Shown one piece after another: positions 3,663-22,340 of a stretch of 24,022 nucleotides of DNA. A program made the translations under genes and the position numbers. Where the stretch lies: IMG/VR virus record IMGVR_UViG_3300025626_000127, positions 1 through 24,022 of that record. One strand, given 5' to 3'. The notes beneath the pieces are model-generated. The model did not search any database, was not told the DNA's origin, and saw nothing but the letters and a program-made list of their open reading frames with translations. Source of the DNA: a virus. Within the stretch, counting starts at the first letter, position 1. Each line of letters starts with the position of its first letter.

Positions 3663-3926
3663 ATGGCAGTACGTAAAACAAAAAAAGGAGCAAATCTTAA
3701 ACGGTGGTTTAAAGAAAAGTGGACCGACGAAAAAGGTAATCCTTGTGGTTCTGCTAAGAATAAGAAAACAAAGAAGTGTAGACCTTCGGTTAGGATATCA
3801 TCGGGTACTCCAGTTACTTGGGGTCAAATGAGTGCATCTGAAAAAAGAAAGGCTGTAGCTGAAAAGAGAAGAACTGGTATGGGCAAACGTACCTCAAGTA
3901 TAAGAAAGAAACGTAAAAAGAAATAA
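3663..3926 (+). CDS. Lys/Arg-rich small protein (DUF5872-like)
   Basis: 87 residues, of which I count 31 Lys or Arg. The core NLKRWFKEKWTDEKGNPCG is followed by a KCRPS segment and a serine/lysine helix (MSASEKRKAVAEKRR), then a fully basic tail KKRKKK. The LKRWFKEKW plus PCG pattern matches what I remember of DUF5872-type proteins in marine phages and large DNA viruses, whose role is unknown. The charge suggests nucleic-acid binding or packaging in the virion. It is the first of six tightly packed small genes up to the chaperonin, and starts four bases after the preceding stop. Confidence 0.7.
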   Translation: MAVRKTKKGANLKRWFKEKWTDEKGNPCGSAKNKKTKKCRPSVRISSGTPVTWGQMSASEKRKAVAEKRRTGMGKRTSSIRKKRKKK

Positions 3927-4252: not shown

Positions 4253-4348
4253 ATGTCAGAAGATAAAAAAGTAAAAGAAGTAATAAAAAAAGATAAACCA
4301 GCTGCACCTAAAGTAGCACCAGGTACAGATCTTAAGCCAAGACCCTAA
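4253..4348 (+). CDS. 31-residue charged micro-protein
   Basis: ATG 4253 to TAA 4346-4348, 31 codons: a Lys/Glu-rich start (MSEDKKVKEVIKKDK) followed by a Pro/Ala/Lys tail (PAAPKVAPGTDLKPRP). The stop overlaps the next start as TAATG. Without this gene there would be a 99-base hole in an otherwise gapless chain, and its boundaries fit the local overlap style, so I call it. It has no recognised family and is probably disordered. Confidence 0.45.
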   Translation: MSEDKKVKEVIKKDKPAAPKVAPGTDLKPRP

Positions 4349-4587
4349 TGCCACAAAAATTATCTCCTGCGGCTCGTAAGAAAAAAGCGACCCGTGACCT
4401 TGCATATGCGAAAACTCCCCGGCGTAGAGCTATGAAGGCGGAGAATCAAAAGAAAAGACGCGATGCACTTAAGAAGGGGATAAATATAAAAGGTAAAGAC
4501 TGGGACCACAACAAGGGTAAATTTGTCTCTGTTAAAGTTAACAGGGGTGGTCACGGTAAAGGAACTAAAAAATACAATACAGCATAA
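4348..4587 (+). CDS. Lys/Arg-rich small protein, possibly a degenerate HNH-like fold
   Basis: 79 residues. The first half is a basic helix (SPAARKKKATRDLAYAKTP, then RRRAMKAENQKKRRDA). The second half holds GKDWDHNKGKFVSVKVNRGG. A basic helix leading into D-x-D-H and then N-R-G is reminiscent of the small HNH-type endonucleases of phages (DVDH ... NR), but the usual spacing and the last metal-ligand region are not evident, so enzymatic activity is doubtful. I recall similar short proteins in marine phage genomes without assigned function. TAATG overlaps at both ends tie it to its neighbours. The HNH link is speculative; a structural or DNA-binding role is equally possible. Confidence 0.6.
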   Translation: MPQKLSPAARKKKATRDLAYAKTPRRRAMKAENQKKRRDALKKGINIKGKDWDHNKGKFVSVKVNRGGHGKGTKKYNTA

Positions 4588-4973
4588 TGGGAACTAAAGG
4601 AACAACAGTGAAAACTGTATTTAATAAAACAAAACAAAGCTGTGGGTGTGAATCAAGCTGTGGTTGTGATGGCTCCCCACTAAGCAGAAAAAGGCGTAAA
4701 GCTCCTTCTCGCAAAAAGTCAAAAGGCTACTATGCAAAAGTAAAGAAGGGAAGCGGAACCGGTAGCAAAGCTGGTGGTGGTATGACCGCTAAAGGTGTTG
4801 CTAAGTATCGTAAAGACAATCCAGGTTCTAAGTTAAAGACAGCAGTAACAACTCCGCCGTCTAAACTTAAGAAAGGAAGCAAAGCGGCTAAACGTCGTAA
4901 AGCATTTTGTGCCAGAAGCAAAAGCTGGACATCAGAGCGTGGTAGAGCAGCACGCCGTAAATGGAACTGCTAA
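4587..4973 (+). CDS. Cys- and Lys/Arg-rich protein with FCARS...RKWNC tail (DUF6321-like)
   Basis: 128 residues. The N-terminus is MGTKGTTV followed by a cysteine cluster CGCESSCGC (about residues 19-27), a candidate metal site. Then come basic linkers, a GMTAKGVAKYRKDNPGSKLK block (about 66-85), AVTTPPSKLKKGSKAAKRRK, and a terminal KAFCARSKSW ... RRKWNC block. The TAKG-YR--NPGSKLKTAVT and C-terminal RKWNC patterns match small proteins I remember from marine phages and large DNA viruses (DUF6321-like), function unknown. High charge and paired Cys suggest binding to nucleic acid with zinc or disulfides; this is inference. It is the last small gene before the chaperonin. Confidence 0.7.
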   Translation: MGTKGTTVKTVFNKTKQSCGCESSCGCDGSPLSRKRRKAPSRKKSKGYYAKVKKGSGTGSKAGGGMTAKGVAKYRKDNPGSKLKTAVTTPPSKLKKGSKAAKRRKAFCARSKSWTSERGRAARRKWNC

Positions 4974-5002: not shown

Positions 5003-6601
5003 ATGGCAATACAATTTGGAGGGCCGAAGATAGTTAAAGAATTAAGCTTTAAAAACGAAGCTAAAGATAAACTAATCGCGGGCATAGATAAACTAGCAGA
5101 AGCTGTAGGTTCAACACTTGGAGCTTCAGGAAGAACAGTAGTTCTTGAAGATGACTTTGGTAACCCACACGTTACTAAAGATGGTGTTACCGTAGCAAAT
5201 TACATTAATTTAGAAGATCCAGTTGAAAACTTAGGCGTTACTATGTTAAAGCAGGCTTCTAGGCAAACAGCATCAAAAGCAGGGGATGGAACGACGACTT
5301 CTACGGTACTTGCTCAAGCGCTCATTCACAATTACTTCTTACAGAAAGGTGAAGACTATTCTTTTAGAGATATTAAAAGTGGCATTACGAATTTTAGCAA
5401 GCATGTGGTGAGCAGCCTTGACAAGAAAGGAATTGCAGTTGATGACAAAAGATTAAACCAAGTATCAAGAATATCTGCAAATAATGATGCAGAACTTGGT
5501 GATTTTATAGCAGATGCTTTTATAGCAGCTGGAGACAACGGAGTTGTTACAATGGAAACTTCCCCGTCAAATGAAACATACATAGATGTAGTAGATGGTA
5601 CACATATAAATTCTACATCAAAGAGTATACATTTTTATACTAATAGAGAAAAAGAGTTGAGTGAGCTAGATAAGCCACTCATTTTTTTATGTGCGTCTGA
5701 AGTAGCTAACGTTAGACGTATACAAACAATACTAGAGTATGCGATTAAGTCCAATAAGTCGTTATTACTCATTGCCCCTTGCGATCAGCAGGTTGTATCG
5801 GCTCTTGCGATGAACCACGTAAAAGGCAATATTAAGTGCAATATCATTGATCCTCCTTCGTTCGGACTAAAGCGAAAGGATATACTTGATGACATTGCCC
5901 TTCTAACGGGTGCTACTGTTATTGATGAGAACTTAGGAGACTCACTTGACAACATCACCCCAGAAGTGTTAGGATCAGCCGACAAGGCTATTATAGATAA
6001 TGATGGTACTACTATTGCAATTAAAGAAGTACCAGCTGAAGTACAAGAAAGAGTTGATTACTTACGTGAGCAGCTTGAAAGTGAAGAGCATCATGTGATG
6101 CGCCCACATATTGAAAATAGATTAGCTATACTAAATGGCGGAGTATCTATTGTATATGTAGGTGGTGACACAGACGTTGAGGTTTCTGAAAAGAAAGACA
6201 GGGTTGATGATGCTATACACGCCGTGCGTGCCGCAAAGAAAGAGGGTATTTTACCAGGAGGTGGGAGTGCATTAGTGCATATTGCTAGCTCTGATTGGGA
6301 AATGAATCTGAATGCAGGTGAGCTTAAAGGCGTAGAGATACTTAAGGCTGCGTTATACGCACCATTTCTACGTATATTAAGTAATGCAGGTTTAAACCCT
6401 AAAGACTATTCTAAAATAGGTAAATGGGGTAATGGGGTTGATGTTATTGACGGTGAGATTAAAGACATGCGTAAAGCAGGTATTATCGATCCAGTATTAG
6501 TTACTAAGTCTGCACTTTTAAATGCAGTATCTGTAGCTACTACAATATTATCAACTGATTGTGTAATTTCAAATGTACGAGAAGGTGAAAGCAATAGGTA
6601 G
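5003..6601 (+). CDS. groEL: Phage-encoded chaperonin GroEL-like protein (Cpn60)
   Basis: 532 residues, near the usual 545-550. An ATP-driven folding chamber subunit. Visible signatures are VTKDGVTVA (57-65), the ATP site GDGTTT at 94-99 with Asp95, DRVDDAIHAVRAA at 399-411 with Asp403 in the position of the hydrolysis Asp, the PGGG turn at 418-421, and the C-terminal MRKAGIIDPVLVTKSAL segment. The segment before the apical beta strands, where bacterial GroEL has a conserved FDRGYLSPYF-like stretch for substrate and GroES binding, instead reads THINSTSKSIHFYT. The Gly-Gly-Met tail is missing; the protein ends GESNR. It is followed, with overlap, by a GroES-like gene, the reverse of the bacterial order. 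It lies between fibre blocks and probably folds a capsid or fibre protein. The family call is very secure; the client is unknown. Confidence 0.96.
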   Translation: MAIQFGGPKIVKELSFKNEAKDKLIAGIDKLAEAVGSTLGASGRTVVLEDDFGNPHVTKDGVTVANYINLEDPVENLGVTMLKQASRQTASKAGDGTTTSTVLAQALIHNYFLQKGEDYSFRDIKSGITNFSKHVVSSLDKKGIAVDDKRLNQVSRISANNDAELGDFIADAFIAAGDNGVVTMETSPSNETYIDVVDGTHINSTSKSIHFYTNREKELSELDKPLIFLCASEVANVRRIQTILEYAIKSNKSLLLIAPCDQQVVSALAMNHVKGNIKCNIIDPPSFGLKRKDILDDIALLTGATVIDENLGDSLDNITPEVLGSADKAIIDNDGTTIAIKEVPAEVQERVDYLREQLESEEHHVMRPHIENRLAILNGGVSIVYVGGDTDVEVSEKKDRVDDAIHAVRAAKKEGILPGGGSALVHIASSDWEMNLNAGELKGVEILKAALYAPFLRILSNAGLNPKDYSKIGKWGNGVDVIDGEIKDMRKAGIIDPVLVTKSALLNAVSVATTILSTDCVISNVREGESNR

Positions 6602-6845
6602 ATATATTATCATATCCGAAATTAAGGAAGATATTAAAAAAACAGATGGCGGCTTGTTATTAGCCGAGAACCATCGAGAAGATATAAGGTACCGTACTGC
6701 AGATGTAAAGTCTGTAGGTACGGCTATCAAAGGTATAAATGAAAATGACAAAATATACTATGACAGGCATGCTGGCCATAATATAGAAATTGGTAAAGAC
6801 ATATATAAAGTTATACAAGAGCAAGACGTTATAATTGTATTATAA
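6573..6845 (+). CDS. groES: GroES-like co-chaperonin (Cpn10)
   Basis: 90 residues, close to the usual 95-100. This would cap the GroEL chamber. The Cpn10 pattern is present: a first strand VKAIGRYIIIS, a mobile-loop stretch IKKTDGGLLLAEN (21-33) in which GGLLL stands where bacterial proteins have GGIVL, then a strand with KSVGTAI, a short NENDKIYYD turn, and a closing VIQEQDVIIVL. It overlaps groEL by 29 bases. An in-frame GTG at 6585 would begin MKAIGRY, align better with typical Cpn10 starts and cut the overlap to 17 bases; I cannot decide between them. The stop overlaps the next start (TAATG). The conserved loop implies that it pairs with the GroEL encoded immediately upstream. Confidence 0.9.
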   Translation: MYEKVKAIGRYIIISEIKEDIKKTDGGLLLAENHREDIRYRTADVKSVGTAIKGINENDKIYYDRHAGHNIEIGKDIYKVIQEQDVIIVL

Positions 6846-13231: not shown

Positions 13232-13588
13232 ATGGCATTAACAAAAATAACATCAGGCGTTATTCATGATGAATTTCAGTCTACTCATAATATAAATGGG
13301 TCTACATCACCGCAAACTATTGATTGGAATGCATCACAAGTATTTAGAGTTACACCAAATGTTCCAATTACATTAAACTTTACTGATTTTAAAATTGGTA
13401 TGGTTAAAATAATTGTAGCAACAGGAGATGGTGTAGGCGCTAATGTTTTAACATTTCCATCTGAGGCTATTTTATTAGGTGGTGAAATGGATACAACTTC
13501 AGGAACAAAAAACTTTATACAAATAGTATGCACAGACGATAATGGTACGCCAGAGTTCTTTTATACTATATCACAACAAGCAACATAA
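13232..13588 (+). CDS. Small beta-rich fibre-associated protein (paralogue 2 of 3)
   Basis: 118 residues: MALTKITSGVIHDEFQ, then IDWNASQVFRV, ITLNFTDFKIGMVKIIV, a VLTFPSEA strand, TKNFIQIVCTDD and a FYTIS end. The same skeleton occurs in the protein at 2003 and in the one at 13591. The opening of the DNA is nearly identical to that at 2003 (ATGGCATTAACAAAA in both). The likely fold is a small beta sandwich used as a virion appendage. The three-way paralogy supports it being a genuine gene; the exact role is unknown. Confidence 0.65.
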   Translation: MALTKITSGVIHDEFQSTHNINGSTSPQTIDWNASQVFRVTPNVPITLNFTDFKIGMVKIIVATGDGVGANVLTFPSEAILLGGEMDTTSGTKNFIQIVCTDDNGTPEFFYTISQQAT

Positions 13589-13590
13589 TT

Positions 13591-13911
13591 ATGGCTAGAA
13601 CAAAAGTAAAAAGCGAATTATTAGCGGATGAATTCTTTTCGTCTAGTGTAATTACAACTAACGTTGACTGGACAGCCTCATCTGTATTTACAAAAACATG
13701 TACCGCTGATACCACACTTACATTTTCAAATGTAAAAACAGGCATGGTAAAAACATTAGTTATTGATGGCAACTACGCATTAACTTGGCCAGCTGGAGTA
13801 AAATGGTTAAACGGAACATATAGCGGAACAGCTACAAAAAACATTATTCAGTTAATATCAACAAATGATGATACTGAAATATTTGGAACAATATCAAATT
13901 ATACTGCATAA
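13591..13911 (+). CDS. Small beta-rich fibre-associated protein (paralogue 3 of 3)
   Basis: 106 residues: MARTKVKSELLADEFF, VDWTASSVFTKT, TLTFSNVKTGMVKTLVI, a YALTWPAGVKW strand, ATKNIIQLISTNDD and FGTISNYT. It aligns motif for motif with its immediate upstream neighbour, which makes a local tandem duplication the simplest origin, and with the more distant copy at 2003. It starts two bases after the previous stop and its stop overlaps the next ATG (TAATG). No catalytic residues are evident. Confidence 0.65.
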   Translation: MARTKVKSELLADEFFSSSVITTNVDWTASSVFTKTCTADTTLTFSNVKTGMVKTLVIDGNYALTWPAGVKWLNGTYSGTATKNIIQLISTNDDTEIFGTISNYTA

Positions 13912-14154: not shown

Positions 14155-17100
14155 ATGGCTATTAACGAACGTCTAGTACATACCGCATCAGCATCAGCAG
14201 CAGGAACAGGTAATCAAGAAGAAGGATTGATGCTTCACTTAGATGCTAACGATGTTGACTCTTATGATGGAGATGGAGATGTTTGGTATGATATACACGA
14301 TCATGAGTATACACCTGCTACAAATGTTTCAGAGCATTTTAATACTGTTTTATATACTGGAACAAGTTTAACAAATGCAATAACAGGAGTCGGGTTTTCT
14401 CCTGATTTAGTTTGGCTGAAACAACGCAATAGTGCACAGAACCACGGGCTTTTTGATACCGTAAGGGGGACAAATAATTTCATAATGTCTAACAGTACTA
14501 GTGCTGAAAACGCTCGAACCACAGATACGTTATCTTCTTTTGATGCTGACGGATTTACTTTAACGCCATATAGCAGCGATGCTTTTATAAATTATACAGG
14601 CAGAACTATGGTTGCGTGGTGTTTTAAAGCAGGTGGATTAAAAAATAAAGCTGCTGGTTTTAATGGAAGTAGTTCAAATATTGATATTTCTGGAAATCCG
14701 CTTGGAGTTAATGATTTTACTTATTCAGTTTGGTTTAACGCTGGTACTGTTTCTGTAGCTAATCAAAATATTATAACTTCTAATGCAGGTCACGTAAATT
14801 ATGGTATACAAGTAACAGGTACGGGAGTGTCAATGTATGCTTTAAATTCTTCAGGAGGTGCAGAATATCTTGTATCAAACACAGGATTAGTATCTGCAGG
14901 AACTTGGTATCACATAGCTTATGTAAAAAGTTCTATTTCAGGTCATTCTTTATACTTAAACGGCAATGTTGTAGCTAGTGATTCAGCGTTTACAGGAAAT
15001 TGCGCATCGGGAACTGGAAATGAAACCACAATAGGCTCAGCAAACAATAATATACAGTGGTTTAATGGTAAAATAAGTCAAGTAAGACTTTTTAACAGTG
15101 CATTAACCTCTTCACAAATAACACAATTATACAATGAAACTCCGGAAGAAAATAATGGACATTTACTTGGTTGTGTTGCTGCATTTCCATTAAACGATAA
15201 TGCAAATGAAATAGACAATAACTATACTGCAACTGCATCAAATGTAACTTTTGGTTTGCCTGGTTATGCAAATAGAAACAACGAAGGAACAACTGAAAGC
15301 ACTGTTAGTGCAAATAATGATTTAGGATTTAGTGTTGTTAAATATAACGGTCTTAACACAGCAGTTACAGCTGGGCACGGTTTGGAATCGCCTCCTGAAA
15401 TGGTAATTTGCAAGCCATTAGCCGCAGGAGCTTGGGCTGTATGGCATAAAGATATGGCTTCTGACCTTGATAAAAATTATATACCATTAACAACAGGGGC
15501 TACAACTCCAAACGCATCAAGCTTGTGGAACTATTCTAATTGGGGGGCTACAAAAATAGGTTCATCTAATCCACTAATGTTTGGTACTAATAATGATATT
15601 ATAGCCTACTGCTTTACATCTAAAAGAGGTGTAAGTAAAGTAGGTAGTTATAGAGGCACAGGTGCTTCTATGGATGTTTACACTGGATTTGAACCTGCAT
15701 TTGTAATAATAAAGAATGCTAGTGCTAGTGCTTCTTGGCATATTTTTGACAATGAAAGAACACAGTCCAACCCTTCAACTGGAGCTTTATTTCCTGATGA
15801 TTCACTTGCAGAAGCAGACTACAATAATGTTTTTGAATTTACATCTACTGGCTTTAGAAACTTAGTTACAAGTACATCTTTAAACACAAATGGAAGTACT
15901 TACATCTACTACGCAGTAGCTAAAGACACTAATGAAACTGAGTTAGCTGACACTGTAGGATTTAAACCTTCAATAGACCCAGAAGACCATTTCAACACCG
16001 TTACTTACACTGGTGATGCTTCTACAAGGTCGATAACTGGCGTTGGATTTCAACCAGATTTAGTCTGGATAAAAGAACGAGATGATACAGCTAATCATCA
16101 CATATTTGATGTTTTAAGAGGTGGCAACAAGAAGATTTCCTCAAACACTACATCAGCAGAGGGTAGTGCATTGGATTTTACTCTTGATAGTGATGGTTTT
16201 TCTATTAACAACGCTGCCTACGGAGATTTGAACGGGTTAAATGACACCTACGTTGCTTGGTGTTTCAAAGCAGGAGGTGCAGCATCGTTGAATGAACAGG
16301 GCGATATAGATTCTCAGGTAAGTGTTAACAATGACTTAGGATTCAGTATTGCTAAATATACGGCAACTGGAGTCACTGCAACAGTAGGTCACGGATTAGA
16401 TACACCACCAGAAATGATTATAGCAAAAACAACAAACCAGGCTTATAACTGGATTGTTTACCACAAAGACATAGGTGCTTCAAATTATCTGATGCTTAAT
16501 ACCACAAATGCCCTTGCTTCCAGTTCGGCTTTTATGAACAATACTAGTCCAACAAGTAGTGTATTTACGGCAGGTGCAGGACAAAACCTAAACTACGCAA
16601 ATAATGACCAAATAGTAGCATATAATTTCACATCTAAAAGAGGAGTATCTAAAGTAGGAAGCTTTGAGGGTACAGGTGCTTCAGGTAATAAAATTTATAC
16701 TGAGTTTGAACCTGCTTTTGTTATGTGGAAAAATGCTGACAATAGTGCATCTAACTCAATGTGGTTTATGTTTGATAACCAAAGAGGAGAGTCTGCTTAT
16801 CTTATGGCTAACTCTAATTCTATAGAAGGAACTGACGCTTCTGTTCAATTTCATAGAGATGGATTTATTGTTCCTAATGCTGGAGCTATAAATAACAGTG
16901 GTCAAACTCACATATACTACGCAGTAGCTAAAAACACAAACAACGAACAGCCACACCTAGAACTTAACTTAGAGGCTGACTCTTATAGTGGCTCAGGTGA
17001 CTGGTTAGATTCAAGTGGTAATGGAAACAACGGAACTATAACAGGTGCTACTCATAATGATGAGTTAGGAGACTTCTTTGATTTAGATGGAAGTGGAGAC

Positions 17101-18153
17101 TATATTGATATACCTACATCAGGAGTTTTTACTGGTGATTTCACTGTAGAAATGTGGTGGAATTTTAACACATTGAGCCCTCCTAGCGGCAGTGCGTATA
17201 GAATGCTTTTAGGAGCTTCAGGTTATTCTGGTGGTAGTGGATTAGGTCATTATATTGAAAACAATAGACTTAGAACTTGGGTTAGTGTTAATGGTAGTAC
17301 TAGTAATGTTTTAAATGGTTCAGGAACTGATTTAACTACAAATAAATGGCAACACGTTGTATTAACAAGAAGTGGAGGTACTTATACTCAGTACATAGAC
17401 ACGAATCAGGTTGGTCAAGCTTCAGGTACAACTGCATCTTTAGACGGGGCTAATTCAAGAATTGGTGGACATTATAACGTAGCATCATCACACGATATAA
17501 ATGCTAAAGTTGGACAAGTAAGATTGTATGATACTGCACTAAGTCAAGCACAAATAAGACAAAACTATAACTTTACTAAGCCTAGTTATCCTAATGGGTT
17601 TGATGCTGCATTAACGAATATGAGTAGTAGTGATTTTGACCCTTCTGACGGACATTTCACTTTTAGTGCAGATAACGATAGAATGCAAACTTCTTTTCAA
17701 CCTAACGTAACAGTACCTTTTACTGCCTCTGTATGGGTTAAACGTAATTCAGGCAATAGTGGATATAAAATAGTAATAGACTATACTCAAAACGCATCAC
17801 CTTATAATGGCTTTGGTATTTTTCACGATGGAACAGGTGATTATGGTATGGCTATAAATGGAGGCACGGATGTTACCATAGGCTCAGAAACATCAGGGTT
17901 TGACCACTTAGTTTTTGTTTACAATGGAGGTACCAGCTGCAAAACTTATATAAATGGAGTTGGCACAACAAGAACACTTAACAATGCTATAGCTCAGCCT
18001 AATACCAGCACTAATTTCGTTGTAGGTAATAGTTACGTAAGTACGTGGTCATCATCTAGGATGGATGTAAGTGATGTTAAATTTTACGATAGAGCATTAA
18101 CTGATGATGAAGTAACTGCTCAGCACGGTATAGGTTATAACGGAATAGGATAA
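14155..18153 (+). CDS. Giant tail-fibre protein with duplicated domains and LamG-like folds
   Basis: 1332 residues. After a short N-terminus there are two copies of a module A (about 61-160 and 611-710) with HFNTVxYTG, GVGFxPDLVW, RxxxxNHxxFD and VAWCFKAGG. Each is followed, directly or after a LamG-like domain (166-333), by a module B (about 387-595 and 725-931) that begins NNDLGFSxxKY and ends IYYAVAK; I associate module B with DUF7483-type fibre domains. Two further LamG-like jelly rolls close the protein (about 935-1144, with FTVEMWWNF and WQHVVLTR; and 1151-1322, with FTASVWVKR). LamG folds usually bind carbohydrate, so this is probably a polysaccharide-binding fibre. No hydrolase motif is visible. 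Its stop overlaps the holin start. Confidence 0.85.
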   Translation: MAINERLVHTASASAAGTGNQEEGLMLHLDANDVDSYDGDGDVWYDIHDHEYTPATNVSEHFNTVLYTGTSLTNAITGVGFSPDLVWLKQRNSAQNHGLFDTVRGTNNFIMSNSTSAENARTTDTLSSFDADGFTLTPYSSDAFINYTGRTMVAWCFKAGGLKNKAAGFNGSSSNIDISGNPLGVNDFTYSVWFNAGTVSVANQNIITSNAGHVNYGIQVTGTGVSMYALNSSGGAEYLVSNTGLVSAGTWYHIAYVKSSISGHSLYLNGNVVASDSAFTGNCASGTGNETTIGSANNNIQWFNGKISQVRLFNSALTSSQITQLYNETPEENNGHLLGCVAAFPLNDNANEIDNNYTATASNVTFGLPGYANRNNEGTTESTVSANNDLGFSVVKYNGLNTAVTAGHGLESPPEMVICKPLAAGAWAVWHKDMASDLDKNYIPLTTGATTPNASSLWNYSNWGATKIGSSNPLMFGTNNDIIAYCFTSKRGVSKVGSYRGTGASMDVYTGFEPAFVIIKNASASASWHIFDNERTQSNPSTGALFPDDSLAEADYNNVFEFTSTGFRNLVTSTSLNTNGSTYIYYAVAKDTNETELADTVGFKPSIDPEDHFNTVTYTGDASTRSITGVGFQPDLVWIKERDDTANHHIFDVLRGGNKKISSNTTSAEGSALDFTLDSDGFSINNAAYGDLNGLNDTYVAWCFKAGGAASLNEQGDIDSQVSVNNDLGFSIAKYTATGVTATVGHGLDTPPEMIIAKTTNQAYNWIVYHKDIGASNYLMLNTTNALASSSAFMNNTSPTSSVFTAGAGQNLNYANNDQIVAYNFTSKRGVSKVGSFEGTGASGNKIYTEFEPAFVMWKNADNSASNSMWFMFDNQRGESAYLMANSNSIEGTDASVQFHRDGFIVPNAGAINNSGQTHIYYAVAKNTNNEQPHLELNLEADSYSGSGDWLDSSGNGNNGTITGATHNDELGDFFDLDGSGDYIDIPTSGVFTGDFTVEMWWNFNTLSPPSGSAYRMLLGASGYSGGSGLGHYIENNRLRTWVSVNGSTSNVLNGSGTDLTTNKWQHVVLTRSGGTYTQYIDTNQVGQASGTTASLDGANSRIGGHYNVASSHDINAKVGQVRLYDTALSQAQIRQNYNFTKPSYPNGFDAALTNMSSSDFDPSDGHFTFSADNDRMQTSFQPNVTVPFTASVWVKRNSGNSGYKIVIDYTQNASPYNGFGIFHDGTGDYGMAINGGTDVTIGSETSGFDHLVFVYNGGTSCKTYINGVGTTRTLNNAIAQPNTSTNFVVGNSYVSTWSSSRMDVSDVKFYDRALTDDEVTAQHGIGYNGIG
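14335..16950 (+). repeat. Internal duplication of modules A and B in the 1332-residue fibre
   Basis: Module A occurs at about 14335-14635 and 15985-16282; module B at about 15312-15940 and 16327-16946. Shared stretches include ITGVGF-PDLVW, AWCFKAGG, FTSKRGVSKVGS and IYYAVAK. At the DNA level the end of module B still shares the run TACTACGCAGTAGCTAAA in both copies, while most of the rest has diverged. The second pair lacks the intervening LamG-like domain that separates A and B in the first. Confidence 0.8.
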
Positions 18154-19086: not shown

Positions 19087-19305
19087 ATGAAATTAATTAG
19101 AAAGATAAGCATTGGGCAGGATTATAAAAATGAAGCAATGCACTACTCTGTAGGTCAAGAAGTTTACGGAGGTCATAAGATATGTGACATATTAGAAGAA
19201 GATGGTAATTACAAGATCTATATTCAAAAAGACGGAGCTCAGCTGCCTTGGAAACATTTCAATGCGAATATGGCTGTATCAATAGAATATAACTTAGACT
19301 ACTAA
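19087..19305 (+). CDS. Small hypothetical protein near terminase
   Basis: 72 residues starting MKLIRKISIGQDYKNEAMHY, then SVGQEVYGGHKICDILEED, a NYKIYIQK strand and a closing PVSI-like segment (MAVSIEYNLDY). The family feel, with an AMHY-VGQEV--G-KI opening and a short W-x-F core, is known to me from phage genomes directly upstream of packaging genes, without assigned function. It is beta-rich with no membrane helix. It lies ten bases after the endolysin and ends right before the next start. Confidence 0.6.
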   Translation: MKLIRKISIGQDYKNEAMHYSVGQEVYGGHKICDILEEDGNYKIYIQKDGAQLPWKHFNANMAVSIEYNLDY

Positions 19306-19893
19306 ATGAAATCACTATACAATTATATTATATCAACAACCAATCGATACGATAATAAAGTGTCTATCGATAACAAAGAACTTATACTAAATACAGAAAT
19401 AACCGAACGTGATTATAAGTTTGTAAATAGAATTGGAACTGTAGTTAATGTTCCTATTAATATAAACACACCTATAAAACCAGGTAATGAAGTTATTATA
19501 CATCACAACGTATTTAGAAGATGGTTTGATGCAAGAGGAAATGAAAGAAACTCGGGTAGCTATATAGACGAAGATAAATATATAGTTTCACAAGATCAAC
19601 TCTTTGCATATAAGCAAAACAATAAGTGGCACTGCCCAAATATGTATTGTTTTGTAGAACCTTTAGAAAACGAAGACATATGGAGCACCGAGAGCGAACA
19701 AAAGCTTTTGGGAAAGCTTACATATACAAACGACTATTTGGAGTCCCTAGGGTTGTCCTATGGCGATACCGTAGGGTTTACTCCAGATTCTGAGTATGAA
19801 TTTAACATAGATGATAAAAAATTATATAGAATTTTATCAACAGACATAACTATCAACTATGGACATAAAAAAGAAACGAGAACTTATTCTTAA
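19306..19893 (+). CDS. Two-domain GroES-like (Cpn10-like) protein
   Basis: 195 residues. The first half (about 5-103) shows a Cpn10-like order: a first strand LYNYIIS, RIGTVVNVP, IKPGNEVIIHHNVFRRW, then KYIVSQDQLFAYK, mirroring the bacterial pattern G-V--V ... GD-V ... Y-I---DI-A. The second half (about 135-186) repeats it more weakly: LLGKLTY, LGLSYGDTVGFTP, EYEFNIDDKKLYRILSTDIT. A long insert replaces the usual mobile loop, and GGIVL is absent, so it may not cap GroEL. I recall proteins of this type labelled co-chaperonin in uncultured phages. It overlaps the TerS candidate by 35 bases. A virion or packaging role is an alternative. Confidence 0.6.
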   Translation: MKSLYNYIISTTNRYDNKVSIDNKELILNTEITERDYKFVNRIGTVVNVPININTPIKPGNEVIIHHNVFRRWFDARGNERNSGSYIDEDKYIVSQDQLFAYKQNNKWHCPNMYCFVEPLENEDIWSTESEQKLLGKLTYTNDYLESLGLSYGDTVGFTPDSEYEFNIDDKKLYRILSTDITINYGHKKETRTYS

Positions 19894-20119
19894 AGCTACA
19901 GAAAATTCAATAAATGAATTAATAAAAGTTATGAATAAGAAAATGGATCCAGATGAATTAGATCCTGAAAAAGTTAAAATATCTGCTTCAGCATATAGAT
20001 TAGCAATGGAAGACGCTATCACAATGTTAGATAGAGTTGAGGAGTTGTCTAATATAAAAGAAGAAGGAGAAAAAGAAAAAAGAGAATTCTTTGGTGTGGA
20101 GGGCCGCACTAATGTATAA
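19859..20119 (+). CDS. Candidate small terminase subunit
   Basis: 86 residues, all helical and highly charged: KKKRELILKATENSINELIKV, a DPDELDPEKVK turn, then SAYRLAMEDAITMLDRVEEL and a Lys/Glu-rich tail. A small helical protein encoded immediately before TerL is the expected place for TerS, which recognises phage DNA and nucleates packaging. No specific DNA-binding motif can be named. Its start overlaps the previous gene by 35 bases; an in-frame ATG at 19931 would avoid this but drop a well-formed helix. It overlaps TerL by 8 bases. The assignment depends on position. Confidence 0.5.
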   Translation: MDIKKKRELILKATENSINELIKVMNKKMDPDELDPEKVKISASAYRLAMEDAITMLDRVEELSNIKEEGEKEKREFFGVEGRTNV

Positions 20120-22340
20120 GCAAATGCTATACACAACAACTACAGATCATTTAGATCTTAAGCACGTTAAAAAGACTAATAAAGCTAAAGCTTTTAAATA
20201 TGGTTATAACGAAGATATTGATTGTGTTGTTATAAGTAAAACCGGTGTTATAGGTGAAATATATGAAGTTCAAGGATTACGAATTGCATTACCTCAAGCA
20301 CCAGATAAAATTGCTGGTCAAGAATTAAATAAAGAAGAACAGGTGTTCATAAAAACACCAAAGCCTTCTTCGCTAAATAAAATTAAAACAATATATGATT
20401 TTAAAATACTTCCAGACGATTTTAAAGAACAGTACTACGATTATATCGATAATGAGTTTAGTCGTAGGTCTGATGGTTATTGGTTCATGTGCAACGGGGA
20501 CCCGTGTTACATTACAGGGTCACACTATGTCTACCTCAATTGGACAAAAATTGACGTGGGATCACCGGACTTTAGGCAGGCAAACAAGATATTCTACTAT
20601 TTCTGGGAGGCGTGCAAAGCTGATCCAAGAAGTTATGGAATGTGCTACCTCAAGAACAGACGGTCTGGTTTTTCCTTCATGGGAAGCTCAGAGGTTGTTA
20701 ATCAAGCTACAGTATCAAGGGATTCCAGATTCGGAATTTTATCTAAATCTGGATCAGATGCAAAGAAGATGTTCACAGATAAAGTTGTACCAATATCAGC
20801 AAATTATCCGTTTTTCTTTAAGCCGATACAGGATGGAATGGAAAGACCCAAAACTGAGTTATCGTACAAAACACCGTCGCGGAGGCTCACCAGGAGTACC
20901 ATTAACGAAGCCTCAACAGAAACCCAAAAAGGATTGGACACGACGATCGATTGGAAAAATACAGGGGACAACTCGTACGATGGGGAGAAACTCAGATTAC
21001 TTGTTCACGACGAATCGGGAAAATGGGAGAAGCCGGACAATATACTCAACAACTGGAGGGTCACAAAAACGTGCCTCAGGCTTGGAGCAAAGGTAGTTGG
21101 TAAGTGCATGATGGGTTCTACATCTAATGCTTTAGATAAAGGCGGAGAGAACTTTAAAAAATTATACTATGACTCAAACGTTACGAAGCGAAATCGCAAT
21201 GGGCAGACTGCTAGTGGACTATACGCTTTGTTCATACCTATGGAATGGAATTACGAAGGATTCATTGACAAATATGGATACCCTGTGTTTGATACTCCAG
21301 AAAGCCCGGTTGAGGGAGTCGACGGAGAACTTATCAGCTATGGAGTTATCGAGCATTGGGAGAATGAAGCAGATGGGCTTAAAGGAAACAATGATGGACT
21401 TAATGAATTTTATAGACAGTTCCCAAGATATGAAAAGCACGCATTTAGAGATGAAATAGAAAAGTCTTTATTCAATCTAAATAAAATATATGAACAAATA
21501 GATTTCAATGAAGAAATGGTTATGCAGGGTTATGTAACTCGAGGATCATTTAGTTGGAAGAACGGAGTGAAAGATTCTGAAGTAGAATTTCACCCAAATA
21601 AAACCGGTAGATTTAAGTTATCTTGGATACCACCGGTTAGTATGCAAAACAATATAATTGTTAAGAACGGAATTAAATATCCAGGTAATCAAGACTTAGG
21701 AGCTTTTGGCTGTGATAGTTATGATATATCCGGAACAACTGATGGTAGTGGTTCAAATGGTGCTTTACACGGATTAACAACATTTAATATGTTATCTGAA
21801 GTTCCATCTAGTCAATTCTTTTTAGAATATGTAGCTAGACCACAAACTGCAGAAATATTTTTTGAAGATGTTCTTATGGCAATGATATTTTATGGAATGC
21901 CAATACTAGCGGAAAACAATAAACCTAGATTATTATATCATATTAAAAGAAGAGGCTACAGAGGTTATTCAATGAATAGACCTGATAAGTCTCGTAATAA
22001 ACTTTCTGTAACAGAAAAAGAATTAGGTGGTATACCTAACTCCTCAGAAGACATAAGACAAGCTCATGCAGCTGCAATTGAAAGTTATATTGAAAACCAT
22101 GTTGGCATCAAAGAAGATGGCGTTTGTGGTAGAATGTACTTTCAAAGAACGCTTGAAGACTGGTCAAAGTTTGATATTAATAAGAGAACTAAGTTTGATG
22201 CGTCTATAAGTTCTGGACTAGCTATTATGGCTTGTCAAAGACATTTATACGCATCCAAAAGTACACGCGAAATTAAAAAAATAGATTTTGGGTTTTCAAA
22301 GTACAACAACGCAGGATCAAACAGTAAAATAATACAATAG
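20112..22340 (+). CDS. terL: Terminase large subunit
   Basis: 742 residues from the ATG at 20112; GTG 20094 or TTG 20091 are alternatives but begin in a stretch that is coding in the preceding gene. TerL pumps DNA into the prohead and cuts it. Around 181-192 KNRRSGFSFMGS fits the Walker A region. LRLLVHDESGKW gives a Walker B with Asp300-Glu301. KCMMGSTSNAL resembles the coupling motif. The nuclease half shows GCDSYDISG (about 534-542), EIFFED (about 581-586) and KFDASISSGLAIM (about 694-706), with acidic residues in the order expected for the RNase-H-like site. The middle third is richer in G+C than the rest. It is followed after 3 bases by the portal gene. Confidence 0.92.
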   Translation: MYKQMLYTTTTDHLDLKHVKKTNKAKAFKYGYNEDIDCVVISKTGVIGEIYEVQGLRIALPQAPDKIAGQELNKEEQVFIKTPKPSSLNKIKTIYDFKILPDDFKEQYYDYIDNEFSRRSDGYWFMCNGDPCYITGSHYVYLNWTKIDVGSPDFRQANKIFYYFWEACKADPRSYGMCYLKNRRSGFSFMGSSEVVNQATVSRDSRFGILSKSGSDAKKMFTDKVVPISANYPFFFKPIQDGMERPKTELSYKTPSRRLTRSTINEASTETQKGLDTTIDWKNTGDNSYDGEKLRLLVHDESGKWEKPDNILNNWRVTKTCLRLGAKVVGKCMMGSTSNALDKGGENFKKLYYDSNVTKRNRNGQTASGLYALFIPMEWNYEGFIDKYGYPVFDTPESPVEGVDGELISYGVIEHWENEADGLKGNNDGLNEFYRQFPRYEKHAFRDEIEKSLFNLNKIYEQIDFNEEMVMQGYVTRGSFSWKNGVKDSEVEFHPNKTGRFKLSWIPPVSMQNNIIVKNGIKYPGNQDLGAFGCDSYDISGTTDGSGSNGALHGLTTFNMLSEVPSSQFFLEYVARPQTAEIFFEDVLMAMIFYGMPILAENNKPRLLYHIKRRGYRGYSMNRPDKSRNKLSVTEKELGGIPNSSEDIRQAHAAAIESYIENHVGIKEDGVCGRMYFQRTLEDWSKFDINKRTKFDASISSGLAIMACQRHLYASKSTREIKKIDFGFSKYNNAGSNSKIIQ

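Follow-up and report, generated by a model that had tools for sequence, protein, structure and literature searches.

A phage lineage that encodes its own GroEL, an overlapping roofless GroES and a second co-chaperonin-like protein

Phage folding systems described to date consist either of host GroEL closed by a phage-encoded lid, as in T4, or of rings that work without a lid, as in phages EL, OBP and AR9. The T4 co-chaperonin gp31, which has no roof loops, makes the chamber a little larger, and its client is the 56-kDa capsid protein gp23 (PMC6318259). GroEL was reported from marine Bacteroidetes phages in 2017 (PMC5332604), and the core genes of the Pervagoviridae, the family of Cellulophaga phage phi40:1, include a "chaperonin cpn10" (PMC8776804). 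In chloroplasts, mixed Cpn10/Cpn20 rings contain seven GroES-like domains, and tandem co-chaperonins have been called chloroplast-specific in a review (PMC5780408). Phage GroELs are already known, and it is the set with two putative lids, described below, that is new: in the literature searched, which was partial and included few subscription journals, neither a tandem co-chaperonin from a phage, nor a pair of lids, nor the inverted gene order was found described.

We analysed a viral record of 24,022 bases, referred to here in its entirety as the window. The phage is marine, with a host probably belonging to the phylum Bacteroidota. A contig from a Bacteroidetes MAG (L212, QQUU01000095.1) encodes a GroEL 79% identical to that of the window; this contig is probably phage DNA binned with its host, and it lends weak support to a Bacteroidota host. 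The features considered below are as follows.

5003..6601, + strand: groEL, 532 aa, group I chaperonin with an intact ATP site and a rewritten apical groove
5618..5647, + strand: replaced apical segment STSKSIHFYT, GroEL residues 206-215, roughly equivalent to E. coli Y199-F204 and the residues that follow
6585..6845, + strand: groES, 86 aa from a likely GTG start within the groEL 3' end, Cpn10 without the roof segment
6845..7294, + strand: ORF of unknown role (PHROG 17028), directly 3' of groES, a constant member of the cassette
19087..19305, + strand: conserved small ORF immediately 5' of coch2
19306..19893, + strand: coch2, 195 aa, second co-chaperonin-like gene, predicted Cpn20-like tandem of two Cpn10 barrels
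20091..22340, + strand: terminase large subunit, with coch2 just 5' of it

The TTG start of the terminase gene at 20091 is probably too early, ATG 20112 being likelier (relatives align from about residue 7). Elsewhere in the window, three small ORFs (2003-2413, 13232-13588 and 13591-13911) have alike N-termini (MALTKVT, MALTKIT and MARTKVK) and bodies that look similar, and are perhaps paralogous tail or fibre modules. The ORF at 14155-18153 encodes 1,332 aa with three stretches each of DUF7483 and Laminin_G_3 (concanavalin-like), probably a receptor-binding or fibre protein. Three small, very Lys/Arg-rich proteins are encoded at 3663-3926, 4348-4587 and 4587-4973, two of them matching DUF5872 and DUF6321, and form a block 5' of groEL that is kept across the window clade.

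A first-pass annotation of the window had drawn attention to the gene pair, its order, the altered apical segment, the missing GroEL tail and the GroES mobile loop, features that are not due to chance. It was silent on coch2, the GTG start of groES, the absent GroES roof and the lost inter-ring contacts.

The phage GroEL, its gene order and its apical groove

The window GroEL matched Pfam Cpn60_TCP1 with E=3.4e-60 (488 of 490 positions, residues 31-524 of 532) and PHROG 5725, "chaperonin groEL", with E=1.7e-133. Its structure model aligned with GroEL 4ki8 at Z 44.3 over 517 residues (group I structures matched up to Z 44), and full-length equatorial, intermediate and apical domains were all present. 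The gene had been described at the outset as a complete GroEL with an intact ATP site (GDGTTT, Asp403), and the 532-aa ORF bears this out: D60 (E. coli D52), G94-D95-G96-T97-T98-T99 (E. coli D87 and T89-T91) and D403 (E. coli D398) are all in place. The ATP-site residues were invariant in 31 of 31 clade members and in 91 of 91 other viral relatives. Nei-Gojobori estimates of dN/dS were about 0.1 for groEL (0.04-0.11 for its apical domain), 0.03-0.15 for groES and 0.09-0.16 for coch2, the ratios being approximate because dS was high in several pairs. groEL is under strong purifying selection, which, together with the kept ATPase residues, makes an active chamber likely.

Gene order separated viral from bacterial loci. 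groEL preceded groES in all 80 viral loci recovered with the GroEL profile, and the two genes overlapped or abutted in 78 of them, the exceptions having gaps of 408 nt (L134) and 254 nt (L139). Bacterial loci were GroES-first in 78 of 79 cases, the remaining one being cut at a contig edge. The inversion relative to bacterial operons, first noticed in the window alone, thus holds in every viral locus recovered, and a single change of order is needed on the GroEL tree. MW202828, Elemovirus and Maribacter phage Panino are also GroEL-first; Immutovirus, Bacteroides phage DAC20 and Cellulophaga phage phi40:1 are not.

A careful GroEL tree of 39 proteins united all 16 viral sequences, the window's included, in one phage-only clade (100/100) whose stem is 2.08 substitutions per site long, in agreement with the deep phage branch that had been anticipated. 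Where Pseudomonadota part from Bacteroidota/Fibrobacterota (100/98), the viral clade falls on the latter side. GroELs of cellular Bacteroidota form a group apart from the viral clade (72/96, not starred), whose point of attachment within that side was not fixed by AU tests (p=0.23 and 0.44 for the viral clade). In a wider quick tree, Elemovirus, MW202828, Panino and phi40:1 fell on the window's phage side, their exact places being unsure because of long branches. A GGM-type tail was present in 77 of 79 bacterial GroELs versus 0 of 31 clade members and 0 of 91 other viral sequences, so that the tail loss reported for the window extends to all 122 viral GroELs. That the phage recently acquired a copy of a host groESL operon would agree with attachment on the tree side that holds the likely host phylum, but the phage-only clade with its long stem, the inverted order and the absence of the GGM tail rule this out for all practical purposes, as the first-pass annotation had suggested; the window gene is not nested in a host groEL clade. 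As a separate matter, a groES-groEL pair beside dgkA and glpQ in L293 (CAKLQH020000021.1, "Acinetobacter phage MD-2021a") groups with A. haemolyticus on an end branch of 0.007; it looks like host DNA and was left out for that reason.

For the apical groove, we took nine positions of E. coli GroEL (199, 201, 203, 204, 234, 237, 259, 263 and 264), drawn from the mutational literature, to be the contacts for substrate and GroES. The window GroEL keeps three of the nine E. coli residues, compared with a bacterial mean of 8.8, and its apical surface is therefore unlike that of E. coli at six of these sites, as had been expected. Y199S, Y203H and L234Q (window S206, H210 and Q241) introduce polar residues, and L259V, V263A and V264M (V265, A269 and M270) are still non-polar. 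L234Q was found in 122 of 122 viral sequences; the residue replacing Y199 varies by subclade, being S or T in the window's and mostly L or I elsewhere, and loss of Y199 together with L234Q extends through the wider viral clade. The reported replacement of FDRGYLS-type residues is seen in the alignment of E. coli FDRGYLSPYF with window INSTSKSIHF, a wording limited to the window subclade. Identity to E. coli GroEL was 36% in the apical domain versus 40% in the remainder of the window protein; judged from these alignments, the specialty is the groove and not the whole apical domain, which is only slightly more diverged. Pure drift is an unlikely cause of the groove changes, given purifying selection on the apical domain in the clade and the fixation of L234Q in all viral sequences. 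The first-pass annotation had proposed an active chamber retuned for a phage client: the kept ATPase and the purifying selection support the activity, and the retuning for a client is what we infer.

Contacts between the rings and two salt bridges are altered as well. The window GroEL has lost the inter-ring residues R452, E461, S463 and V464 together with the salt-bridge pairs R197-E386 and D83-K327, and it has other residues in place of the acidic cluster D359/D361/E363. Given the lost inter-ring contacts and pairs, a weaker or different double ring would be expected.

A roofless GroES and a second co-chaperonin-like protein

The window GroES matched Pfam Cpn10 (E=3e-10). Its frame has a first ATG at 6573, but GTG 6585 is the likely start, giving 86 aa, because relatives begin at an aligned MKAIG and because an in-frame stop comes immediately after the upstream ATG in L004 and L027. 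The overlap with groEL stands with the revised start, at 17 nt: the groEL end GGT GAA AGC AAT AGG TAG is the groES start GTG AAA GCA ATA GGT AGA, and this shared sequence constrains the possible GroEL tail. As first noted, the mobile loop retains GGLLL, with a hydrophobic tripeptide of the L-L-L type, and all 138 viral GroES proteins have the loop glycine (E. coli G24). The roof segment comprises nine residues in 136 of the 138, versus 13-18 in bacteria.

Almost the entire coch2 product aligned with PHROG 13932, "co-chaperonin GroES" (E=1.3e-25), a family that all 52 aligned relatives matched as well. A structure model of middling confidence (pLDDT 79.8), built from 52 sequences, had chloroplast Cpn20 7ekq_R as its best PDB match (Foldseek 5.3e-5; VIA Z 10.6 over 158 residues at 3.7 A). 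Taken separately, the C half of the model (residues 107-186) resembles GroES (Z up to 8.2) and the N half (residues 1-106) human Hsp10 (Z 7.5, 2.4 A, 83 residues); alcohol-dehydrogenase GroES-like domains rank next for the N half, at Z 5 and less. The C half is Cpn10-like by both sequence and fold: its comparison with GroES by hhalign gave a probability of 82% and E=1e-5 (reversed control 0.5%), and the C half of the phi40:1 homologue scored above the Pfam Cpn10 cutoff. Neither Pfam nor profile-profile comparison found Cpn10 in the N half, so that a Cpn10 barrel there is suggested by the predicted fold, and the coch2 profile had no significant match among PDB sequences. We therefore describe the protein as having a predicted Cpn20-like architecture and do not assign it as a Cpn20.

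Residues 21-40 of the N half form a loop modelled with low confidence (pLDDT 58-66) that carries L26-I27-L28, with L26 kept in 51 of 52 members; in the model it looks like a mobile loop. The corresponding region of the C half is shortened, so each coch2 protein may present a single GroEL-binding loop. An HHN(V/I)FR motif (H66, H67, N68, F70 and R71) is invariant in the 52 sequences and, to our knowledge, is not among known lid features. In one record (G007, that of L029), coch2 at 31734-32322 is in two pieces with internal stops, a frameshift or sequencing error, and GroEL and GroES are present.

GroEL, GroES and coch2 occurred together in 31 of 33 long viral records (coch2 in 33, GroEL in 31, GroES in 31), a co-occurrence within one lineage that is partly linkage, the records having been selected through GroEL or coch2 hits. 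The two lacking GroEL and GroES are fragments of 40-42 kb. phi40:1, Panino, MW202828 and Elemovirus each carry a GroEL, a short Cpn10 and coch2, and no coch2 match was found in Immutovirus, DAC20 or the crAss-like cr108_1, all of which have GroEL. coch2 lies just 5' of the terminase gene in the window, the viral loci, Elemovirus, Panino and MW202828, at a distance from groEL of 12.7 kb in the window and at least 1.6 kb in every measured locus.

Proposed mechanism and alternative readings

On balance, we favour a phage-encoded group I chaperonin with two co-chaperonins that folds virion proteins unsuited to host GroEL/ES. The clients would exceed the host machinery in size or have special needs that it does not serve, capsid or tail proteins being the customary guess from T4 and lambda. 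An unfolded client would bind the rewritten apical groove, ATP at the intact equatorial site would drive the cycle, and a lid would dock in the groove through its hydrophobic mobile-loop tripeptide and close the chamber, which may be roomier, as with T4 gp31, because GroES has no roof. Lids would come from two genes, a single-barrel GroES encoded from within the groEL end and a presumed two-barrel coch2 encoded among packaging genes, and could act separately or mix in one seven-barrel ring. Two-barrel units alone cannot match seven GroEL subunits, but three coch2 and one GroES would supply seven barrels. In a more specific version, GroES and the tandem co-chaperonin of a whole Bacteroidota phage lineage would join in a hetero-oligomeric lid (for example 3x2+1=7) on the phage's own GroEL, a Cpn20-like arrangement arisen outside plastids, and the resulting chamber, lopsided and roofless, would serve a phage client. 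This version is speculative, and we think it unlikely to be right in full. If such a mixed lid were real, tandem co-chaperonins would exist in viruses too and not in chloroplasts only, and the system would offer a compact test of an even-numbered lid part on a seven-fold chamber and a way to separate client from lid recognition in one groove.

The groove changes might reflect co-adaptation to the phage's own lids and not to a phage client. The same GroEL groove residues bind both substrate and the GroES mobile loop, so lid matching accounts for the changes equally well, and the mobile-loop tripeptide differs between sampled bacteria (I-[IFY]-I types) and viral GroES (L-L-L types). No result obtained here tells lid matching from client matching, and we regard co-adaptation to the lids as a plausible reading, though one we lean away from. 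coch2 itself could be a GroES-fold packaging or head-assembly protein outside the chaperonin cycle, the machine then consisting of GroEL and the short GroES. Its place among packaging genes, next to terminase and away from groEL wherever measured, makes such a role possible, and the invariant HHN(V/I)FR motif, unlike known lid features, and the short C-half loop point the same way. This role nevertheless seems doubtful to us, considering that coch2 accompanies GroEL and GroES in 31 of the 33 long records, has no match in phages with the bacterial groES-groEL order (Immutovirus, DAC20) and retains L26 of its N-domain loop in all but one of 52 members; moreover, its phi40:1 homologue gp089 is without the mass-spectrometry annotation as a virion protein that the nearby gp087 and gp091 carry.

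It is highly improbable that the window GroEL works lidless as an open ring, in the manner of the giant-phage chaperonins (EL, OBP, AR9). The loss of R452, E461, S463 and V464 and of both salt-bridge pairs would fit such a ring, and loss of R197-E386 and D83-K327 is also reported for phage EL (PMC7185714). However, the window has an adjacent, overlapping groES whose product carries a hydrophobic mobile-loop tripeptide, and the giant-phage chaperonins, which dispense with a co-chaperonin (PMC9598537), share only about 20-25% identity with the window GroEL.

Comparison with known systems

No GroEL in the phage collection exceeds about 41% identity to that of the window. The best match among phage records is the GroEL of the Flavobacterium phage Immutovirus (40.6%), which also has its own GroEL and GroES but differs from the window in its bacterial gene order, its groove segment FNRGYKSPYF and the lack of a coch2 match. 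In gene content, Elemovirus, MW202828, Panino and phi40:1 resemble the window, with GroEL, a short GroES and a coch2 homologue, but they do not have the INSTSKSIHF groove segment of the window subclade. In phi40:1, moreover, GroES comes first with one gene between, whereas in the window GroEL comes first and the genes overlap.

T4 borrows host GroEL and adds a phage lid, whereas the window phage encodes its own GroEL; gp31 and the window GroES are both phage co-chaperonins without roof loops, a shared feature that is not proof of kinship. Cpn20 has a mobile loop with a hydrophobic tripeptide in both domains, whereas coch2 has LIL in the N domain and a shortened C-domain loop. Chlamydomonas CPN20 (7ekq_R) nevertheless has the tandem Cpn10 barrels predicted for coch2, at 11-13% identity and in a plastid instead of a phage, and Cpn20 occurs alongside single-barrel Cpn10 (PMC5780408) as coch2 does alongside GroES. 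The chains of PDB 7ekq, one CPN11, two CPN20 and one CPN23, add up to seven barrels. The GroEL homologues of the giant phages EL, OBP and AR9 are like the window GroEL in being without E. coli-type inter-ring and allosteric contacts, but they are far more divergent and need no co-chaperonin (PMC9598537), whereas the window has an overlapping groES. Compared with these systems, the window lineage brings together a chamber, a lid and a putative double-barrel lid-like protein, and it differs in the groove, the roof and the ring contacts alike.
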